NCBI RefSeq assembly: GCF_003217095.1
Contig: NZ_QJSR01000001.1
Coordinates: 1,588,009-1,652,008 of the forward strand
Direction: 5' to 3'
Source: Rhizobium sp. PP-CC-3A-592
GTDB taxonomy: Bacteria > Pseudomonadota > Alphaproteobacteria > Rhizobiales > Rhizobiaceae
DNA length: 64,000 bases
In this document: positions 56,320 through 64,000 of the stretch, one piece after another
Layout of the letters: every line of letters starts with the position of its first letter
Numbering within the stretch: position 1 is the first letter of the stretch
Made by a program: the position numbers and the translations under genes
The notes under the pieces: generated by a model
Databases searched by the model: none
Told to the model about the DNA's origin: nothing
Seen by the model: only the letters and a program-made list of their open reading frames with translations

Positions 56320-56913
56320 TCAAGGCGCCGCACCTGAACCTTCGAGATCCGGCATTAGCTGCGTCTCGCCGTTCGGCGTCTCCTCGCCTGTCGCCTCTTC
56401 GGACGGCTTGAAGGTGGGGAAGCGCATCGTCTCCCCGTCTTTGTCGAGCACCATCTCCCGACCATCGACCGAGACGACGGACCAGCCTCGAAAGAGGTCT
56501 CCCGTTCGCAACACATGCCGCGTTTCGTCGCTTTCGTCGCGCACGAGCGCGCTCACGCCCTCCGGCGTGCCGATGACGCCGAGGAGCTGCAGAGTGATCG
56601 GTTCCGATGGCTGTTCGGTCGGCGGCTCCGCCACCTCGGGGACTGGTTCGGTCACCGGATCGGGCGGGCGGGTCCGGCTGGGGGAGAACAACGGCCGGTC
56701 GCGGAACCCGGTCAGAGATGCGGGATCGATCGCCGACAGCGGATTCGGATTGGGGTTCGGCGTCTGAGCTGCGTCCCGTGCCGGCACATCCTGCGCTGCG
56801 GCCCCGCCGCCTGCGGCGACGATACCGGTGCAGAGACCTGCCGCCAGAAGCAGCGGGACGCCGTGCAGGCGAAGGCGGCTTTGCCGCGATGGTGCCGGTC
56901 GGAGCTTCCACAT
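56320..56913 (-). CDS. GspC-like homology-region protein of the type II secretion system
   Basis: A 197-residue exported protein. A hydrophobic segment (about residues 20-40) ending AAAQDV looks like a signal peptide or anchor; a Pro/Asn-rich linker leads to a GspC-type homology region (LLGVIGTPEGVSALVRDES, VLRTGDLFRGWSVVSVDGRE), after which a short acidic tail follows. No PDZ domain is present, unlike classical GspC. It starts in the gspM stop (TGATG) and ends the leftward gsp transcript. The GspC-like assignment rests on the domain and context. Confidence 0.65.
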   Translation of the reverse strand: MWKLRPAPSRQSRLRLHGVPLLLAAGLCTGIVAAGGGAAAQDVPARDAAQTPNPNPNPLSAIDPASLTGFRDRPLFSPSRTRPPDPVTEPVPEVAEPPTEQPSEPITLQLLGVIGTPEGVSALVRDESDETRHVLRTGDLFRGWSVVSVDGREMVLDKDGETMRFPTFKPSEEATGEETPNGETQLMPDLEGSGAAP

Positions 56914-57506
56914 CACGAACCGCTCTCCGCACCTGCTTCGGGTCCTGTCTCCGGCGTCCAACGCGCGCCGATCGCCATATCCACCCGCAGCAGGATCTGC
57001 CCGTTATTGCCTGGGCTTGCCCCTTCTGCATCGGGAAGACGGCGGATCGAGAGGCTTTCGACCGTCATCAGAGGCAGACCGCTTTCCAGCTGGTAGAGCA
57101 GGCGGAGAAGGCCGTCATTGTCGATATCGAAGGTCGTGGTGACGGCGATTTCGTCGCTCTCCTCGCCCTCGGCCACGTCGCCTTCGCTCGCTGCCGTCTC
57201 GATGATCCGGCCGGGAGCGGCCGCAATGGCATCGAGGATCGTCTGTTGCAGCCGTGCGATGGCGGCGGTGCGCGACAGGCCTTCGATGGTGAGGCTTGGT
57301 GTCGTGTCTCCGGTCGAAGCCGGGATGCTCGCAAGTCGGCGCTCCAGCTTGGCGGCTTGACGGGTCGCCTCCTCCACCGTGAGGCGATCCTCGGCGATCT
57401 GGAGGTAGTTGAGCACACCCAGCGTCATGAACAGCGCGGGCAAGCCAATGAAGACGAGGATGGCCGAGAGGCGAAGGGCCTGCATGCGTGGCGGCGAGAG
57501 GGTCAT
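56913..57506 (-). CDS. gspM: Type II secretion protein GspM-like
   Basis: A 197-residue inner-membrane protein. A single helix (about residues 12-32, LSAILVFIGLPALFMTLGVL) is followed by a short coiled segment (EDRLTVEEATRQAAKLERRL) and a ferredoxin-like periplasmic domain ending in a Gly/Glu-rich tail. The layout is that of GspM, which pairs with GspL. It overlaps the gspL gene by four bases and the following gene by one. Confidence 0.75.
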   Translation of the reverse strand: MTLSPPRMQALRLSAILVFIGLPALFMTLGVLNYLQIAEDRLTVEEATRQAAKLERRLASIPASTGDTTPSLTIEGLSRTAAIARLQQTILDAIAAAPGRIIETAASEGDVAEGEESDEIAVTTTFDIDNDGLLRLLYQLESGLPLMTVESLSIRRLPDAEGASPGNNGQILLRVDMAIGARWTPETGPEAGAESGS

Positions 57507-58615
57507 GGTGAGGGCGCTCCGTCCTTGCCCGCGCGGATGACGGAGATGTCGAAGCGATCGCGCCCATCCTCCTGCCGCGTCACCGGTGCTGCAAAGCTCG
57601 CCTGCGAGAGGGCGGGTTCCGCCTCGATGATCGCGACGAGGGACGATGCCTCGGTGGACGTGCCGGCGAGCCGCAGGCTCTGCGGCAGGATGTCGAGTTC
57701 GTCGAGAGTGGTCGTGTCGGGAAGAATGGTCGCGAGACGGTCGATCAGCACAAAGCTCGCCTGCTCCGGGGTCTTGCCCTCCAGCATCGCTGCCGCGCGC
57801 TCGCGAATGCCGCCGCTGCCGGAAGCCCCCACCATCTTGCGGCGGGTCGCATCCAGCGCCGCCTGTGCGTCCGCGACTTCGCTCGTGCTCATCGAGAGTG
57901 CTGCGATCGACGCGAGAAAGCCTGCGAGGGTCAGGACGAGGACGGCAAGCGTGCCCGCCGCGATGCGTCTGCGACGGGTCTTGCGCAGCGTATCGTTCTC
58001 ACCGTTGAGAAGATCGATGCGCAGGCGCTCCTCGATCGGCTCACCTGCCGATCCGACGCGCGAGGGCACCAGGCCGAAGGCTGCGAGCCGGGCGATGCCG
58101 GCCGCCACGATCTCGCGCGAGGTCGCGACGACGTCGACGGTGAGCTGACCATCGCCGCCCGGTTTCGAGGCGACATGAAAACCGTGCAGCAGCTTTTCCG
58201 GTCGCCAGGGCGTCAGCCTGTCGAGGCGACTGGCAACGATCTGCGCAGCAAAGCCGGATGCTTCCGCCGGCACCTTCATCTGGGTCGTGACGACGCGATC
58301 GGCCTGCAGGCGCAATTCTGTCTCACCATTCCCCCCGCTGCGGAACGCCCGACGGACGGGTTCGGGAAGGTTGCTGCCATGACCGAGGAAGACCGCGCCG
58401 CGCCGCGAGACCCGGTAAAACGCGAGATCGCCGGACGAGGGCGGCATGCCCGCCGCCTCTGCCGCCATCGGCGGATCGCGACGATCGCCCGAGACCTCCA
58501 CGACGATCCATCGCGCGCCCGGTGCAAGCGCCACGAAGACGGGCTCGACAGCATCCAAAAAGGCGGAGAGCAGCGGCCTTGCCGGCCGGACTAGGCGGGA
58601 AAGGATGCCGCTCAT
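57503..58615 (-). CDS. gspL: Type II secretion protein GspL-like
   Basis: A 370-residue protein. The N-terminal two thirds form an actin-like cytoplasmic part, one helix near residues 225-245 (GTLAVLVLTLAGFLASIAAL) crosses the membrane, and a PilN/GspL-type periplasmic domain follows (DELDILPQSLRLAGTSTEAS). GspL links the ATPase GspE to the membrane platform. The gene lies 37 bases after gspE and four bases overlap gspM, so the three are likely co-transcribed. Confidence 0.8.
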   Translation of the reverse strand: MSGILSRLVRPARPLLSAFLDAVEPVFVALAPGARWIVVEVSGDRRDPPMAAEAAGMPPSSGDLAFYRVSRRGAVFLGHGSNLPEPVRRAFRSGGNGETELRLQADRVVTTQMKVPAEASGFAAQIVASRLDRLTPWRPEKLLHGFHVASKPGGDGQLTVDVVATSREIVAAGIARLAAFGLVPSRVGSAGEPIEERLRIDLLNGENDTLRKTRRRRIAAGTLAVLVLTLAGFLASIAALSMSTSEVADAQAALDATRRKMVGASGSGGIRERAAAMLEGKTPEQASFVLIDRLATILPDTTTLDELDILPQSLRLAGTSTEASSLVAIIEAEPALSQASFAAPVTRQEDGRDRFDISVIRAGKDGAPSP

Positions 58616-58652
58616 GAGCGCGCCGCCTGATGGTGAGACAAGACCCTGCGCC

Positions 58653-60350
58653 TCATCCGGTCGCCCTGATCACTTCGTCGATGGTGGTCATGCCCTCGGC
58701 GCATTTGGCCAGCCCATCCTCCAGCATCGAGGTCATGCCCCGCTCCTCCGCCTGGCGGGCGATCACGGCCGGGTCCGGATCTCTCCGGATGGCCGCCCGG
58801 ATATCGTCATCGACCGGCAGCACTTCGAAGATACCGATCCGGCCGCGATAGCCGCTCTGGCCGCAGGCCTCGCATCCCACCGCCCGGTGAAAGTTCAGCG
58901 TGGCGGGCAAGCGAATGCCGCGCCGGGCGGCGAGCGTGACGGCGCCTTCCCGCGCGCTGTCATCCGGTGCCTTGCAGCGCTCGCAGAGCCGGCGCACGAG
59001 GCGTTGCCCGAGGACGCCGCGCAGGCTCGCGCCCAGCAGATAGGGCTCGACGCCCATGTCGATCAGGCGGACCACGGCGTCGGAGGCGGAATTGGTGTGC
59101 AGCGTCGTCAGCACGAGATGCCCCGTCAGCGCCGCCTGGATGCCGATACCCGCTGTTTCGCGGTCGCGCATCTCGCCGATCATGATGACGTCGGGATCGT
59201 GGCGGAGGAACGAGCGGAGAGCGGAGGCGAAGGTCAGCCCAATGGATGGCTTGATCTGCGTCTGGTGGATGCCGGGGATCTGGTATTCGACGGGATCTTC
59301 CACCGTGACGATCTTGCGCCCGGGATCGTTCAACATGGAGATGGCGGTCGCCAGCGTCGTCGTCTTGCCGCTGCCGGTCGGGCCGGTGACGACGACCACG
59401 CCGTGCGGCTCGGCCAGCAGGGTCTCGAACCTGCGCTGGTCGGACGTGCTCATGCCGATGCGGCCGAGATCGAGCAGCCTGCTGTCGCGCAAGAGAATGC
59501 GCAGCACCGCGGTTTCCCCATGCAGCGTCGGCATGACGGCGACGCGAAGGTCGGCCTCGGCATTGCCGATGCGGATATTGGCGCGTCCGTCCTGCGGCAG
59601 GCGGCGGTCGGCGATATCGAGTCCGGCGAGGATCTTGATGCGCGAGATGACGGCGGGCGCGAGGCCGAGCGGCAGCCGCTGGTCACGGCGCAGGAAGCCA
59701 TCGACGCGAAACCGCACCCGGAGGTGATCGCGCTCGGTTTCCACGTGAATATCCGTCGCACCGGCACCGACGGCGCGCTCCAGAATCTCGTCGATCAACC
59801 GGACGACAGGCGCGCCGCGCGCCAGGTCCTGGATCGCCTGAAGACTGTCGCCGGTCTCCTCCGGCATCTCGATGGCGGCAACGCCGGTGTCCGGGCTTGC
59901 CTCCTCCGACGCCCGCTCGAACAGGAGCGCGATGTCTTCGAACGAGACGACGCGGAGGGCCGGCTGCGCGCCGAGCGCCAGTTGCACGGCGCGCACGGCA
60001 TCGTAGCGGGCAGGGTCGGCCAGCGCCAGCATGGGCGCACCGTCCTCATCGTAGGGAAAAAGATGCGACTCGCGCAGATATCGCCGCGACAGATCGCTCA
60101 TCAGATGCGGCCGAGAGGCAATCGCCTCGAACCGCCCGCGCGGCAAGGCGTGGAATGCGGCGAGCGCATCCGCAATCTCGGTCGCCGTCACAAGGCCGCC
60201 GCGCCACATCTCCTCGGCCGACAGGGGTTTCGACGTTTGCGGGAGAGCAGCCCGGAGCCCGCCTGCGCGCTCCGCCATGAAAGCCTGAAAGTCATTGGCA
60301 GACTGCGAGGCGAGCGCGATCGAGGAAGATACGTCAGTTTGCGGCCGCAT
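58653..60350 (-). CDS. gspE: Type II secretion ATPase GspE
   Basis: A 565-residue hexameric ATPase. The N-terminal GspE domain covers about residues 60-150; Walker A TGPTGSGKTTTLATAI lies near residue 320, the Asp box follows as TVEDPVEYQIPG, and Walker B as DVIMIGEMRDRETAG. The zinc-binding CERC (near residue 457) and CEAC (near 494) complete the four-Cys motif of GspE. The start at 60350 has GGAGGACG ahead; an upstream frame is rejected. It drives the pseudopilus and sits with gspL and gspM. Confidence 0.93.
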   Translation of the reverse strand: MRPQTDVSSSIALASQSANDFQAFMAERAGGLRAALPQTSKPLSAEEMWRGGLVTATEIADALAAFHALPRGRFEAIASRPHLMSDLSRRYLRESHLFPYDEDGAPMLALADPARYDAVRAVQLALGAQPALRVVSFEDIALLFERASEEASPDTGVAAIEMPEETGDSLQAIQDLARGAPVVRLIDEILERAVGAGATDIHVETERDHLRVRFRVDGFLRRDQRLPLGLAPAVISRIKILAGLDIADRRLPQDGRANIRIGNAEADLRVAVMPTLHGETAVLRILLRDSRLLDLGRIGMSTSDQRRFETLLAEPHGVVVVTGPTGSGKTTTLATAISMLNDPGRKIVTVEDPVEYQIPGIHQTQIKPSIGLTFASALRSFLRHDPDVIMIGEMRDRETAGIGIQAALTGHLVLTTLHTNSASDAVVRLIDMGVEPYLLGASLRGVLGQRLVRRLCERCKAPDDSAREGAVTLAARRGIRLPATLNFHRAVGCEACGQSGYRGRIGIFEVLPVDDDIRAAIRRDPDPAVIARQAEERGMTSMLEDGLAKCAEGMTTIDEVIRATG

Positions 60351-60527
60351 GGCACGTCCTCCTCTTAACATCCGCATCCTCGCATCCGGCCACGACGCAT
60401 ATGGTGCCACAACGCATTCGCGCCGGCTCGTCGTTCTTTTGAGCACTGCACAGGGTCCGGTTCAAGAACCGATTGCAGGCTGCAGGGGTCATCCAGAGAA
60501 CAATACCGCCGAATACCTGCATGCCGG

Positions 60528-60556
60528 AAAAGGAACAGCCCGTACGAGGACGGGCT
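60528..60556 (-). terminator. Rho-independent terminator behind the ferritin-like gene
   Basis: On the minus strand AGCCCGT and ACGGGCT pair around a six-base loop, and GTTCCTTTT follows. It starts 31 bases after the ferritin-like gene's stop and separates that gene from gspE. Confidence 0.7.
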
Positions 60557-60586
60557 GTCTGTTTCGTCCCGAAGGATCGCGTTGGA

Positions 60587-61486
60587 TCAGGCGATGTTGC
60601 CGTTGAGCTTACGCGGGAAGAAGCTCGCCTCGCTGGCACCGGAGCCGAGATAGACGATGTTCAGGACCTGTTGCGGTGTGCGGCTGAAGGCCAGGCCATT
60701 GGCGTCGGTCGGCACGATATTGACGCTCTTCTCACTGCCGATGCCCATGTCGAGATCGGTGGTGCCGTCGAGCGAGTCACGCGCGTCGGAGATCGCGTTT
60801 GCCTGCGCAAATAGGCCGCGGGACGCCAGCAGCGTGCGGATCTCGCCGGCGTGATAGGCCTCGACGGCGAGAAGCCCGGCAGCCGCTTCCAGGAAGTCCT
60901 TGTTCTGGATGAAGCGGGCAGCGCCCTTATAGGCGGTTACACCGACATCTTCGAAGATGAAGGCCGCGAGGAGGAAGTTATTCTCGTTTGCAAAAGCATC
61001 GAACGTTTCCTTCGCGCCGACAAGGCCGGCGGCACGCGCCGCCGCCGTGAAGCTGGTGGCAAGGTTGATGCCCGGCCGAGCGACCTTGGCATCGCCGAGC
61101 GCCTTGCGGAGGAAGCGCACATGGGCCTGCTCGTCGCGGGCGATCTCCTCTGCATAGCTGCGGACGAGCGCCGACTTGAACGGGACCTTGCGGCCACCGA
61201 GAACGCCGCCCAGACGCCCGTTTCCGGTCGTATCGCCATCCAGAAGCCGGCGGCCGAAGGCTGCGATGAGGTAAAACTCCGCTTCGAGATATTCGAGGTT
61301 GAGCGCGAAGTTCAGGATGGTCGCGTCATCCAGTTCCTGGGCTTCCGCCTGTTCCGGCAGGCCGGTGAGGCCGATGGTTGCAGCTCCTGCGGCCATGAGG
61401 CCTGCGGAGCGCAGGAAGGCCCTGCGGCCTGCCTGGAGATCGATCGTCCGTGTGGGCACAAGGCCCTCGTCTTGCATCTGTGTCAT
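60587..61486 (-). CDS. Tat-exported ferritin-like domain protein
   Basis: A 299-residue protein. A twin-arginine signal (RRAFLRSAGLMAAGAATIGL, about residues 21-40) is followed by a ferritin-like four-helix bundle (ALNLEYLEAEFYLIAAFGRR; EEIARDEQAHVRFLRKALGD; NNFLLAAFIFEDVGVTAYKG; GLLAVEAYHAGEIRTLL) with Glu and His positions expected for a di-metal site. Such PF13668-type proteins are known in many bacteria, with unsettled functions. The start at 61486 has GGGACGAG ahead; the longer frame is rejected. It lies between gspE and gspD, so it may be a cargo of that system, which is inference. Confidence 0.87.
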   Translation of the reverse strand: MTQMQDEGLVPTRTIDLQAGRRAFLRSAGLMAAGAATIGLTGLPEQAEAQELDDATILNFALNLEYLEAEFYLIAAFGRRLLDGDTTGNGRLGGVLGGRKVPFKSALVRSYAEEIARDEQAHVRFLRKALGDAKVARPGINLATSFTAAARAAGLVGAKETFDAFANENNFLLAAFIFEDVGVTAYKGAARFIQNKDFLEAAAGLLAVEAYHAGEIRTLLASRGLFAQANAISDARDSLDGTTDLDMGIGSEKSVNIVPTDANGLAFSRTPQQVLNIVYLGSGASEASFFPRKLNGNIA

Positions 61487-61598
61487 CTGCTCGTCCCTTC
61501 CCCGTTCGCTTGAAAGCGCGCACCGGCACATGATCACCGGCACACACACGACGAAGCCGGAGCGCAAGAAGTTTCACGGCCAGAATTTGCGTCTTCGA

Positions 61599-61615
61599 GC
61601 CATGCGACGCATGGC
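61599..61615. repeat. 17-base palindrome in the ferritin-gspD gap
   Basis: GCCATGCGACGCATGGC is a perfect palindrome around one central base, in the 283-base gap between the divergent ferritin-like and gspD genes. It has no T run. An operator for one or both promoters is possible. Confidence 0.5.
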
Positions 61616-61769
61616 GCCGATTTGAAACTTAGCGTCCCGATCCTTCGTCTCTTGATCAGGGCAAACGACGAGCCTGCGTAAGACAGGCGGCTCTAACGAA
61701 AGATCTGTGGTGTACCTGCGCCGGGCCGGTTTGGTGCTTGCGCAGGCGGATGTTTTCGTTTGAGGTGAC

Positions 61770-63995
61770 ATGATGGCGAGCGAGGCTCGTTTTTCTCTTG
61801 GGGGTGTTGAGAGCGTGCCGGCATTCATGCAATTTGGCCGCACTGTTCTGTGTTGCGTCCTTGTTGGTCTCGTCGGGGGTTTTCTCACCGGATGCCAGAC
61901 CAGCGACGGCGATGGCGAATCCGCATTTGCGGGCGGCGTCTTCAGCGATCTCCAGGCGCGCAATACGCGCGAGCATCCCGACCCGACCTCGACATCTCCC
62001 GCACGACGCACCGGCAGCACGCAGACCTTCGGTCCGGACAGGGGGCTGACGCCCGTCGGTTCCTCGGATGCGGGCTCTGCCGGACAATATACGTTGAATT
62101 TCGACCGGACCGACATCAAGGACGTGGCCCGCGCGATCCTCAACGACGCGCTGCATCTCAACTATTCGATCAGCGGCGAACTGTCCGGCCCGGTCACACT
62201 GTCGTCCGCCCGGCCCGTCACGCGCGAGCAGCTTCTGGCGACGCTCGAAACGTCGCTCTCCTCCTTCGGCTTCTCGCTCATCCGCTCGGGCAGCGAATAC
62301 CGCATTGCCGCCAGCGGGCTGTCCGGCGGCACGGTTGATTTCGGCAACCGCACGCGGGCCGGTTTCGGCGTCTCGGTCATCCCCCTCAGCTTCGTGTCTG
62401 CCTCCACGATGATGGAGCTTCTCTCGGGCTTCGTCGCCGAGGCCGACGGGTTGCGGGTCAACGCTGCCGGCAACAGCATCATCGTGCGCGGCTCGGGCCC
62501 GCAACGCGCAGAAGTCGCTGAAGCCGTGATCTCGTTCGACTCCGATTTCATGCAGAACCAGTCCGTGTCGATCTTCCGCCTCGCCGAAGCGCGGCCGGAG
62601 CAGATCGTTCCGGAACTGGAGCGCATCTTCAACAGCCAGGGACAGAGCGGCGCCATCCAGTTTCGCGCGGTCAACCGGCTGAAGGGGGTCATGGCGATCT
62701 CGCGCAATGCCGGGCTCCTGAAACGCGCGGAAAGCTGGGTCCGGCGGCTCGACCAGCAGGATGGACAATCCGGCCAGAACGTCGTCGTCTACAAGGCGCG
62801 CTACCGCAAGGCCGCCGAACTTGCGGCCGTCATGAACAATCTCTTCGGCGGATCGAGCGGCGCCGTTTCGTCCCCGACCCAGCAGCCCATGCCGACGCAG
62901 CCGGCGGAAGAGCCCTCGGGGTCCGGCAATCCGGCCATGTCGGAAACCGAGGGATCGGGCTTGGCAACCCAGGCCAATGCCCGCATCGCCTCGGCCTTCG
63001 CCACGACATCGGACGAGAACACCGGCTCGGCGATGAGCGGCGTGCCCAATGTCGTCGATCTCACCTCGGGCGCCCAGGAAACACAGGCGCCGATCCGCAT
63101 CAGTGCCGATCCATCCAACAATTCGGTCGTCATCTATGGCGATTCCGAGCGGGCCGACCAGATCATCCAGACGTTGAAGCGCCTCGACGCAACCCCGGTG
63201 CAGGTCGCCATCAACGTGACGATCGCCGAGGTGCGGCTGACGAAGGAGCTGAAATACGGCGTCCAGTATTTCATCAACAGCAAGAACCTAGGTCTCGGCA
63301 CCAATAACGGCTCCGTCAGCCTCGTCGATCAGGCGAGCGGCGTCCTGAAGCGGCAGATCCCGGGCCTCAATTTCGTGATCGGCGCCAATGCCGATCCCGA
63401 TGTCATCATCTCCGCGCTCGATGTCATCGGCGACGTCGAGGTGCTGTCGTCGCCCTCGCTTGTGGTGCTGGAAAACCAGACGGCGACGCTGCAGGTCGGC
63501 GACGAAGTGCCCATCACGACGCGCCAGTCGCAGAGCCTCGAAAACGCGGTCGCGCCCGTGATCAACCAGGTCGAGTTCAAGAACACCGGCATCATCCTCA
63601 ACGTCACGCCGCGCATCAGCCAGAACGATGCGGTGACAATGCAGATCGAGCAGGAAATCTCAAATGTTTCGAGCGGCGCCAACACACTGACGCCGACGAT
63701 TTCCAAGCGGCGCATCGAGAGCCAGATTTCTGTCAACGACCAGCAGACCGTGCTGCTCGGCGGCCTGATCAGCACCGGCACGAACAACGGCAAGAGCGGC
63801 ATTCCCGGCGCCAACCGTATGCCCGGCATCGGCGGACTTTTCGGCCAGACCCAGAAGAGCGCCAACCGCACCGAACTGATCGTCCTCATCCGCCCCGTCA
63901 TCATCCGCGATGCGCAGGATGCCGCCAATGTGGCGGAAAGCCTGCGCGCGCAGATGTCCGTCATCGGCGGGCGCGGCGGCGGGCGCATGAAATGA
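61770..63995 (+). CDS. gspD: Type II secretion secretin GspD
   Basis: A 741-residue outer-membrane secretin. A signal sequence with lipobox FLTGC (Cys near residue 42) suggests lipid anchoring; N0 (about residues 104-185, YTLNFDRTDIKDVARAILND) and N1-N3 domains (GFGVSVIPLSFVSASTMMEL) follow, a Ser/Pro/Gln-rich insertion near residues 362-410, and the secretin core with LLGGLISTGTNNGKSGIPG and TELIVLIRPVIIRD near the end. ATG 61773 is an alternative start; GAGGTGAC lies ahead of both. It is transcribed away from the ferritin-like gene, and its stop overlaps the next gene's start. Confidence 0.93.
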   Translation: MMASEARFSLGGVESVPAFMQFGRTVLCCVLVGLVGGFLTGCQTSDGDGESAFAGGVFSDLQARNTREHPDPTSTSPARRTGSTQTFGPDRGLTPVGSSDAGSAGQYTLNFDRTDIKDVARAILNDALHLNYSISGELSGPVTLSSARPVTREQLLATLETSLSSFGFSLIRSGSEYRIAASGLSGGTVDFGNRTRAGFGVSVIPLSFVSASTMMELLSGFVAEADGLRVNAAGNSIIVRGSGPQRAEVAEAVISFDSDFMQNQSVSIFRLAEARPEQIVPELERIFNSQGQSGAIQFRAVNRLKGVMAISRNAGLLKRAESWVRRLDQQDGQSGQNVVVYKARYRKAAELAAVMNNLFGGSSGAVSSPTQQPMPTQPAEEPSGSGNPAMSETEGSGLATQANARIASAFATTSDENTGSAMSGVPNVVDLTSGAQETQAPIRISADPSNNSVVIYGDSERADQIIQTLKRLDATPVQVAINVTIAEVRLTKELKYGVQYFINSKNLGLGTNNGSVSLVDQASGVLKRQIPGLNFVIGANADPDVIISALDVIGDVEVLSSPSLVVLENQTATLQVGDEVPITTRQSQSLENAVAPVINQVEFKNTGIILNVTPRISQNDAVTMQIEQEISNVSSGANTLTPTISKRRIESQISVNDQQTVLLGGLISTGTNNGKSGIPGANRMPGIGGLFGQTQKSANRTELIVLIRPVIIRDAQDAANVAESLRAQMSVIGGRGGGRMK

Positions 63996-64000
63996 GCCGC
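63992..64000 (+). CDS. Start of a further gene behind gspD (partial)
   Basis: Three codons are visible (ATG AGC CGC) before the right edge. The ATG overlaps the gspD stop as ATGA, which suggests translational coupling and a further secretion gene. GspF or a pseudopilin gene is likely from context, but the protein cannot be seen. Confidence 0.35.

Follow-up and report, generated by a model that had tools for sequence, protein, structure and literature searches.

The window analysed here, a stretch of 64,000 nucleotides from Rhizobium sp. PP-CC-3A-592 (G000:C1:1588009-1652008; genome of 5.1 Mb, contig end at 1657399), holds at its right end one divergent type II secretion system (T2SS) locus, which contains a gene for a ferritin-like protein. 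This protein, called FER below, belongs to the family PF13668 and is related to DRB0118 of Deinococcus radiodurans. As judged from the sequences, FER is rather likely to be a folded metalloenzyme that would be exported by the twin-arginine translocation (Tat) system and then by the T2SS. The gene content of the locus, the Tat motif, the conserved ligands, the fold match, the purifying selection and the recurrent linkage to T2SS genes were observed directly. From these, we infer the use of Tat, the use of the T2SS, a phosphatase activity and a role in desiccation; for secretion by the T2SS, the evidence is the linkage.

The ferritin-like gene and its T2SS locus

FER lies between gspE and gspD, as an earlier sequence-only reading had stated, and its product matches PF13668 with 147 bits. 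Its N-terminus carries the Tat motif GRRAFLRSAGL, read from the ATG at 61486. The motif is general in the family: RRx[FLISV] stands ahead of helix A in 101 of 102 FER proteins, the exception being a broken copy (L069). The genome of the window has one tatC, and FER is the sole PF13668 gene detected in it.

The placing of gspE, gspL and gspM on the minus strand and of gspD on the plus strand, also part of the sequence-only reading, is confirmed by profile matches. That reading took the cluster to be split around a stranger; it is instead a single divergent locus with FER inside, and its T2SS genes are completed past the window end. The further gene into which gspD was said to run is there and proves to be gspO (start 63992), followed by gspF, G, H, I, J and K (L005 12658-16986). 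Of these, gspF (PF00482), gspG (PF08334) and gspK (PF21687) score over their cut-offs. gspI is known by N_methyl only, gspH falls 0.6 bits short of its cut-off, and gspJ is assigned by position only, without a Pfam match. The minus-strand gene read as GspC-like exists as well; its assignment to GspC is weak, both profile scores being below cut-off. On plasmid pTH2c, the gene at the same place carries the annotation 'type II secretion system protein N'. The N-terminus of GspD shows a lipobox-like LTGC, as does that of the GspD of another T2SS-linked locus (L118). In the sister genome G094, the nearest genome, gene order at this locus is identical.

Family, metal ligands, fold and selection

FER is about 47-49% identical to DRB0118 (P0001; 47% over 294 aligned columns), whose sequence was translated from the D. 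radiodurans plasmid MP1 and agrees with the construct printed in PMC11616004. A dinuclear metal site was described in the tardigrade protein RvFeMP-1, and RvFeMP-1 and DRB0118 have phosphatase activity on several nucleotides, damaged ones included (PMC11616004). These activities are low, and the physiological metal is left unsettled in the available text of that source. RvFeMP-1 dimerises unlike known ferritins (PMC11616004). Inactivation of DRB0118 lowers desiccation survival, as cited in the same paper (PMC11616004).

Ligand positions were mapped by alignment to DRB0118 and by the ligand list of PMC11616004. Residues E65, E68, E119, H122, E179 and E209 are kept in 100-102 of the 102 aligned FER proteins; FER thus has the M1-site Glu and Glu-x-x-His together with acidic ligands on other bundle helices. 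A distant member (L065, 31%) has Gln at E68 and H212. The metal binding predicted by the sequence-only reading is backed by these conserved residues. Metal oxidation, which had been proposed alongside it, is rated less likely than a metal-dependent phosphatase or desiccation protein, given that DRB0118 is the characterised protein closest to FER.

The AlphaFold2 model of FER (pLDDT 85.5, pTM 0.82) has bundle helices at 54-77, 106-133, 168-192 and 196-222. With VIA-align, the top match is RvY_06210 (8kce; Z 18.5, rmsd 2.0, 162 aligned), which is taken as RvFeMP-1, judged from the 1.05 A resolution given in title and abstract. The next other protein has Z 13.2. Ferritins and Dps proteins appear in the list at Z up to 13.2, below RvFeMP-1, and the fold alone is not decisive; Foldseek alone gave weak matches to the model (E about 0.01). 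A sequence-profile search of the PDB found no solved relatives, only the Tat-signal part of AioB being matched (E 0.03). The default reading as an iron-storage ferritin was set aside by ranking and not by exclusion, because DRB0118 is the nearest characterised relative and RvFeMP-1 tops the fold list. The 'ferritin-like' proteins of an Anabaena exoproteome paper are Dps, according to the available text of that paper.

FER is under strong purifying selection. Compared with G094, its dN/dS is 0.014 at a dS of 0.33, the lowest among 14 genes compared; gspD (0.044), gspG (0.060), gspF (0.108) and gspE (0.148) follow, and the remaining nine range from 0.22 to 0.40. The dS of FER resembles that of its neighbours (0.23-0.60). 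The low ratio therefore stems from dN, and recent exchange is not its explanation.

Linkage to T2SS genes across genomes

The sequence-only reading had suggested a check for linkage to gsp genes in other genomes. An order survey of 397 genomes was made (thresholds of E <= 1e-20 for FER and E <= 1e-90 for gspD), and linkage was found, though in a minority of cases. FER occurs in 13 genomes and gspD in 65, of which 60 are over the curated cut-off. Ten of the 13 FER genomes have gspD, against 55 of the 384 others (Fisher p 1.4e-6, kinship ignored). The two genes lie within 10 kb of each other in three of the ten genomes with both (G000, the window genome; G243; G307). With the window excluded, two of nine are linked against about 0.06 expected; this and the chance expectations for tatC and NRAMP given below assume rough genome sizes and gene counts. 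In a class survey, FER was found in three of 385 genomes, window included. Within the family of G243, two of 20 genomes have FER, both previously found in the surveys.

Outside the window genus, seven T2SS-linked FER loci are known, namely L064, L065, L086, L107, L118 and the plasmid loci L168 and L173. In the neighbour searches around the first five, gspJ matches were left out. At least 571 relatives were found, and the 79 loci studied are the best of them; they are therefore the closest ones and no fair sample. T2SS genes are nearby in four of these 79, one being the sister genome and the others Aerophototrophica crusticola (L086), Methylobacterium sp. Leaf117 (L107) and the metagenome-assembled genome (MAG) Rhizobium sp. 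LANL01E (L118). Plasmid records with a match numbered 118 in one search and 121 in another, and seven were hand-picked for inspection, one nearly whole. Two of the seven are T2SS-linked: in Rhizobium sp. TH2 (L168, pTH2c) and Acidisoma sp. PAMC 29798 (L173), FER sits among the T2SS genes. One is linked to Tad and Tat genes, and four have neither.

The seven loci show about five arrangements, one of them common to L118 and L168. In the window genus as well as in L118 and L168, FER is placed between E and D, oriented like E in the former and like D in the latter two. It stands between D and a C-M-L-E block in L107, tail to tail with K in L064 and L086, after gspK on the same strand in Acidisoma, and tail to tail with a C-like gene in L065. 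A quick tree of 56 hand-picked rows from the 102 FER proteins, eight of them T2SS-linked, needs at least six changes of the linked state. The broken copy L069 and L081, from the same contig as G094, were omitted from the tree; L065, L173 and L175 stand on long branches. The window and two Rhizobium rows form one clade.

The FER proteins of G318 and G340 are 48-49% identical to that of the window and group with DRB0118 and a Sinorhizobium copy. Within the order, gspD is present in each of the five genera whose intact FER is not of the G318/G340 type, compared with 36 of 137 other genera (Fisher p 0.0017, or 0.0058 once the window genus is removed), a post hoc grouping in which kinship is ignored. 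In G375, of the window's family, a PF13668 copy is split over two frames (L069 6987-7903), an apparent pseudogene, and gspD has no match.

Tat, NRAMP and Tad genes as neighbours

The 79 loci were divided into 17 diderms and 62 Actinobacteria by their record names, and Pfam identities were obtained for a sample of the neighbouring genes. Within 3 kb of FER, tatC is found in eight of the actinobacterial loci and tatA/B in nine; the tenth tatA/B locus of the same scan is a Methylobacterium plasmid. In L089, L100, L123, L128, L143, L145, L156 and L158, the PF13668 gene has both a tatC and a tatA/B at a distance of about 1 kb or less. These eight genomes, selected because tatC adjoins FER there, have exactly two tatC each, and the tatC beside FER is therefore an additional one. 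A gene for an NRAMP divalent metal transporter lies at most 1.8 kb from FER in 14 actinobacterial loci (L083, L091, L098, L100, L101, L109, L113, L128, L131, L135, L143, L145, L152 and L159). Roughly, chance would give 0.08 for tatC and 0.17 for NRAMP within 3 kb.

On the Methylobacterium plasmid NZ_CP099613.1 (55.8 kb; L169, L174), three FER genes, tatABC and a Tad cluster share about 24 kb. IS66 genes lie among them, and the plasmid resembles a kit for export that is mobile. On L084, a contig of an alphaproteobacterial MAG, three FER matches occur together with tadC, tadB and cpaF.

The recurrence of PF13668 genes next to export machinery of various kinds suggests an extracellular site of action for the protein. 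With such company, FER is favoured as a protein that is exported and ends up outside the cell; the data favour a route that needs only Tat in monoderms, with a secretin machine as a second stage in some diderms.

Proposed export route and alternative explanations

According to the explanation preferred here, FER would belong to the DRB0118/PCC13-62/RvFeMP class of folded proteins with a dinuclear metal site, and would probably act as a phosphatase on sugar phosphates and on nucleotides, whether damaged or free. Its metal would be loaded in the cytoplasm. The folded protein could then cross the inner membrane via the housekeeping Tat system, with its one tatC, and be released into the periplasm, from where the neighbouring T2SS would push it through the lipobox-bearing GspD. 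When cells dry out or meet oxidative stress, FER would do its work at their surface or in their surroundings. Parts of such a route have precedents: Tat-exported proteins can be T2SS cargo, and the secretins HxcQ and XpsD, with a lipoprotein signal and lipobox, may pilot themselves (PMC6617341). The T2SS need not serve FER only, as a gene for a reprolysin-like metallopeptidase lies between gspL and gspE in G243 (L064 3955-5811). This metallopeptidase is itself a possible second T2SS cargo.

The earlier proposal of a Tat-exported ferritin-like T2SS cargo gains from the recurrent linkage, the seven loci outside the genus and the Tat and Tad neighbours elsewhere; it is tempered by linkage being the minority state. 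Indeed, several observations weigh against secretion by this route. In the order survey, FER and gspD are kept apart in seven of the ten genomes with both, 62 of the 65 genomes with gspD lack a linked FER, and a PF13668 gene at E <= 1e-5 is found in only 11 of the 65, linked in the same three. Both non-window FER genomes of the class survey have gspD elsewhere. Six of the 13 FER genomes belong to one genus, and the co-occurrence counts ignore kinship. Two diderms, G318 and G340, have FER and no gspD over the cut-off. At the locus itself, a hairpin lies between FER and gspE, and gspD is read away from FER, so that co-transcription can only be supposed. Finally, the FER model is mainly helical, whereas T2SS substrates are often beta-rich (PMC6617341).

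Alternatively, FER would be an envelope protein kept in the periplasm or on a membrane, the place of its gene reflecting shared regulation or joint transfer. The separation of the two genes in most genomes and the gspD-less G318 and G340 speak for such a protein, as do the location of the locus on some plasmids and a Sinorhizobium copy (K101, the one record inspected among 74), around which no annotated T2SS genes occur in the surrounding 16.7 kb. It is nonetheless unlikely, since the linkage recurs with differing gene orders, genes for Tat export adjoin FER in some Actinobacteria, and gspD is present in all five genera of the post hoc grouping above. A narrower question is whether FER is a phosphatase at all. 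A protein that binds or oxidises iron or manganese, compatible with secretion, would agree with the carboxylate and histidine ligands of nearly all aligned proteins, with the NRAMP genes at 14 loci and with iron ABC transporter genes near DRB0118. It is considered somewhat doubtful in view of the phosphatase activity of DRB0118 and RvFeMP-1, low as it is and with the metal unsettled, and of the dimer of the latter, unlike that of ferritins (PMC11616004).

It is very improbable that FER serves as an accessory part of the T2SS, such as a periplasmic protein that helps to assemble the machine or supplies other cargo with metal. The position between gspE and gspD in the window genus, L118 and L168, or after gspK in line in Acidisoma, would fit such a part. 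However, 54 of the 65 gspD genomes do without a PF13668 gene at E <= 1e-5, and 62 of the best 79 loci are actinobacterial; Actinobacteria are not known to have a T2SS.

Relation to known systems

PlcH of Pseudomonas aeruginosa is a Tat-exported T2SS substrate, and the Hxc T2SS of this species is dedicated to the phosphatase LapA. Like FER, the Legionella proteins PlcA and LirB have a twin-arginine signal (twin-lysine in LirB) and a T2SS present; both, one a phospholipase and the other a putative isomerase, are reported to be T2SS substrates, whereas FER would be a helical dinuclear-metal protein and is a putative substrate (PMC6617341). The liposecretin HxcQ of the Hxc system shares a lipobox-like N-terminus with the GspD of the window (PMC6617341). 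A phosphatase-type cargo is proposed here too, by name unrelated to that of Hxc.

The DRB0118/Tar-fer-related PF13668 proteins (RvFeMP-1, PCC13-62, Rds1) have an N-terminal signal peptide, as does FER (PMC11616004). DRB0118 has the same residues as FER at the ligand positions, including the Gly on the third bundle helix. In contrast to FER, its N-terminus has a lipoprotein-like LAGC after RRRFL. FER also differs from these relatives by its place in a T2SS locus, and its phosphatase activity is only predicted.

Tad systems are known for pili. A wider reading, in which Tad would act as a protein exporter, is put forward tentatively. DRB0118-type stress proteins would be cargo that travels with its own export machinery and would have been joined, independently and repeatedly, to exporters of folded metalloproteins. 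In Actinobacteria, the machine would be a second TatA/TatC, with or without NRAMP; in Rhizobium and its kin, Methylobacterium, Acetobacteraceae and others, a T2SS; and on the Methylobacterium plasmid, tatABC plus Tad with three FER genes. The aim would be an extracellular, metal-charged enzyme clearing damaged nucleotides and phosphates around drying cells. Tat-then-T2SS cargo, PF13668 phosphatases and the T2SS are known separately; among the matches listed in the open-licence PMC literature, no paper joins a PF13668 protein to a T2SS, Tad or a second Tat. Plants, tardigrades and bacteria are known to have desiccation-related proteins of the PCC13-62/DRB0118 class. If the adjoining Tat, T2SS or Tad genes do export the bacterial ones, these would work extracellularly, with consequences for how the plant and animal relatives are viewed, and a helical metal-loaded protein would join the list of Tat-then-T2SS cargo.

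Features of the locus

The coordinates are collected in Table 1. FER is on the same strand as gspE and 140 bp upstream of it when the listed gspE start is used; the ATG at 60350 is possibly an alternative start. For gspL, the NCBIfam profile search gave no match. The sequence-only reading had credited FER with its own terminator, for which there is little support, the hairpin being listed on the plus strand only, with two sites found against 1.5 expected from shuffles and a minus-strand fold z of -1.6. No sigma-70-like site was found in the FER/gspD intergenic region, and no RNA element at 60300-62000 matched Rfam at the gathering score.

Table 1 Features of the T2SS-FER locus in window coordinates
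Feature	Coordinates	Strand	Evidence
gspC/gspN-like gene, weak member	56320..56961	-	PF11356 16.8 bits (cut-off 27); NF041515 32.6 bits (cut-off 150)
gspM, XpsM type	56913..57506	-	PF10741 (T2SSM_b) 45.9 bits; NF040576 81.1 bits (cut-off 60)
gspL (PilN-like domain)	57503..58615	-	PF05137 30.9 bits, over cut-off; operon position
gspE ATPase	58653..60446	-	PF00437 438.9 bits; TIGR02533 544.6 bits, below cut-off 630
Hairpin between FER and gspE	60535..60558	.	Terminator scan; terminator role doubtful
FER, Tat-signal PF13668 (Ferritin_2) protein, 299 aa, DRB0118-like	60587..61486	-	PF13668, cut-off 24.7
Putative Tat signal peptide region of FER (GRRAFLRSAGL...AEAQ)	61334..61486	-	Read from sequence
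Divergent intergenic region FER/gspD	61487..61769	.	88% identical to sister genome G094
gspD secretin	61770..63995	+	TIGR02517 384 bits (cut-off 351)
gspO prepilin peptidase, first bases	63992..64000	+	PF01478, over cut-off

A tRNA-Met gene lies directly past gspK, near the contig end (L005 17294-17370), and is a possible integration site of the T2SS-FER locus. A second PF00437 ATPase gene of the window genome is found at G000:C1:1585143-1585964, about 2 kb before the window start.

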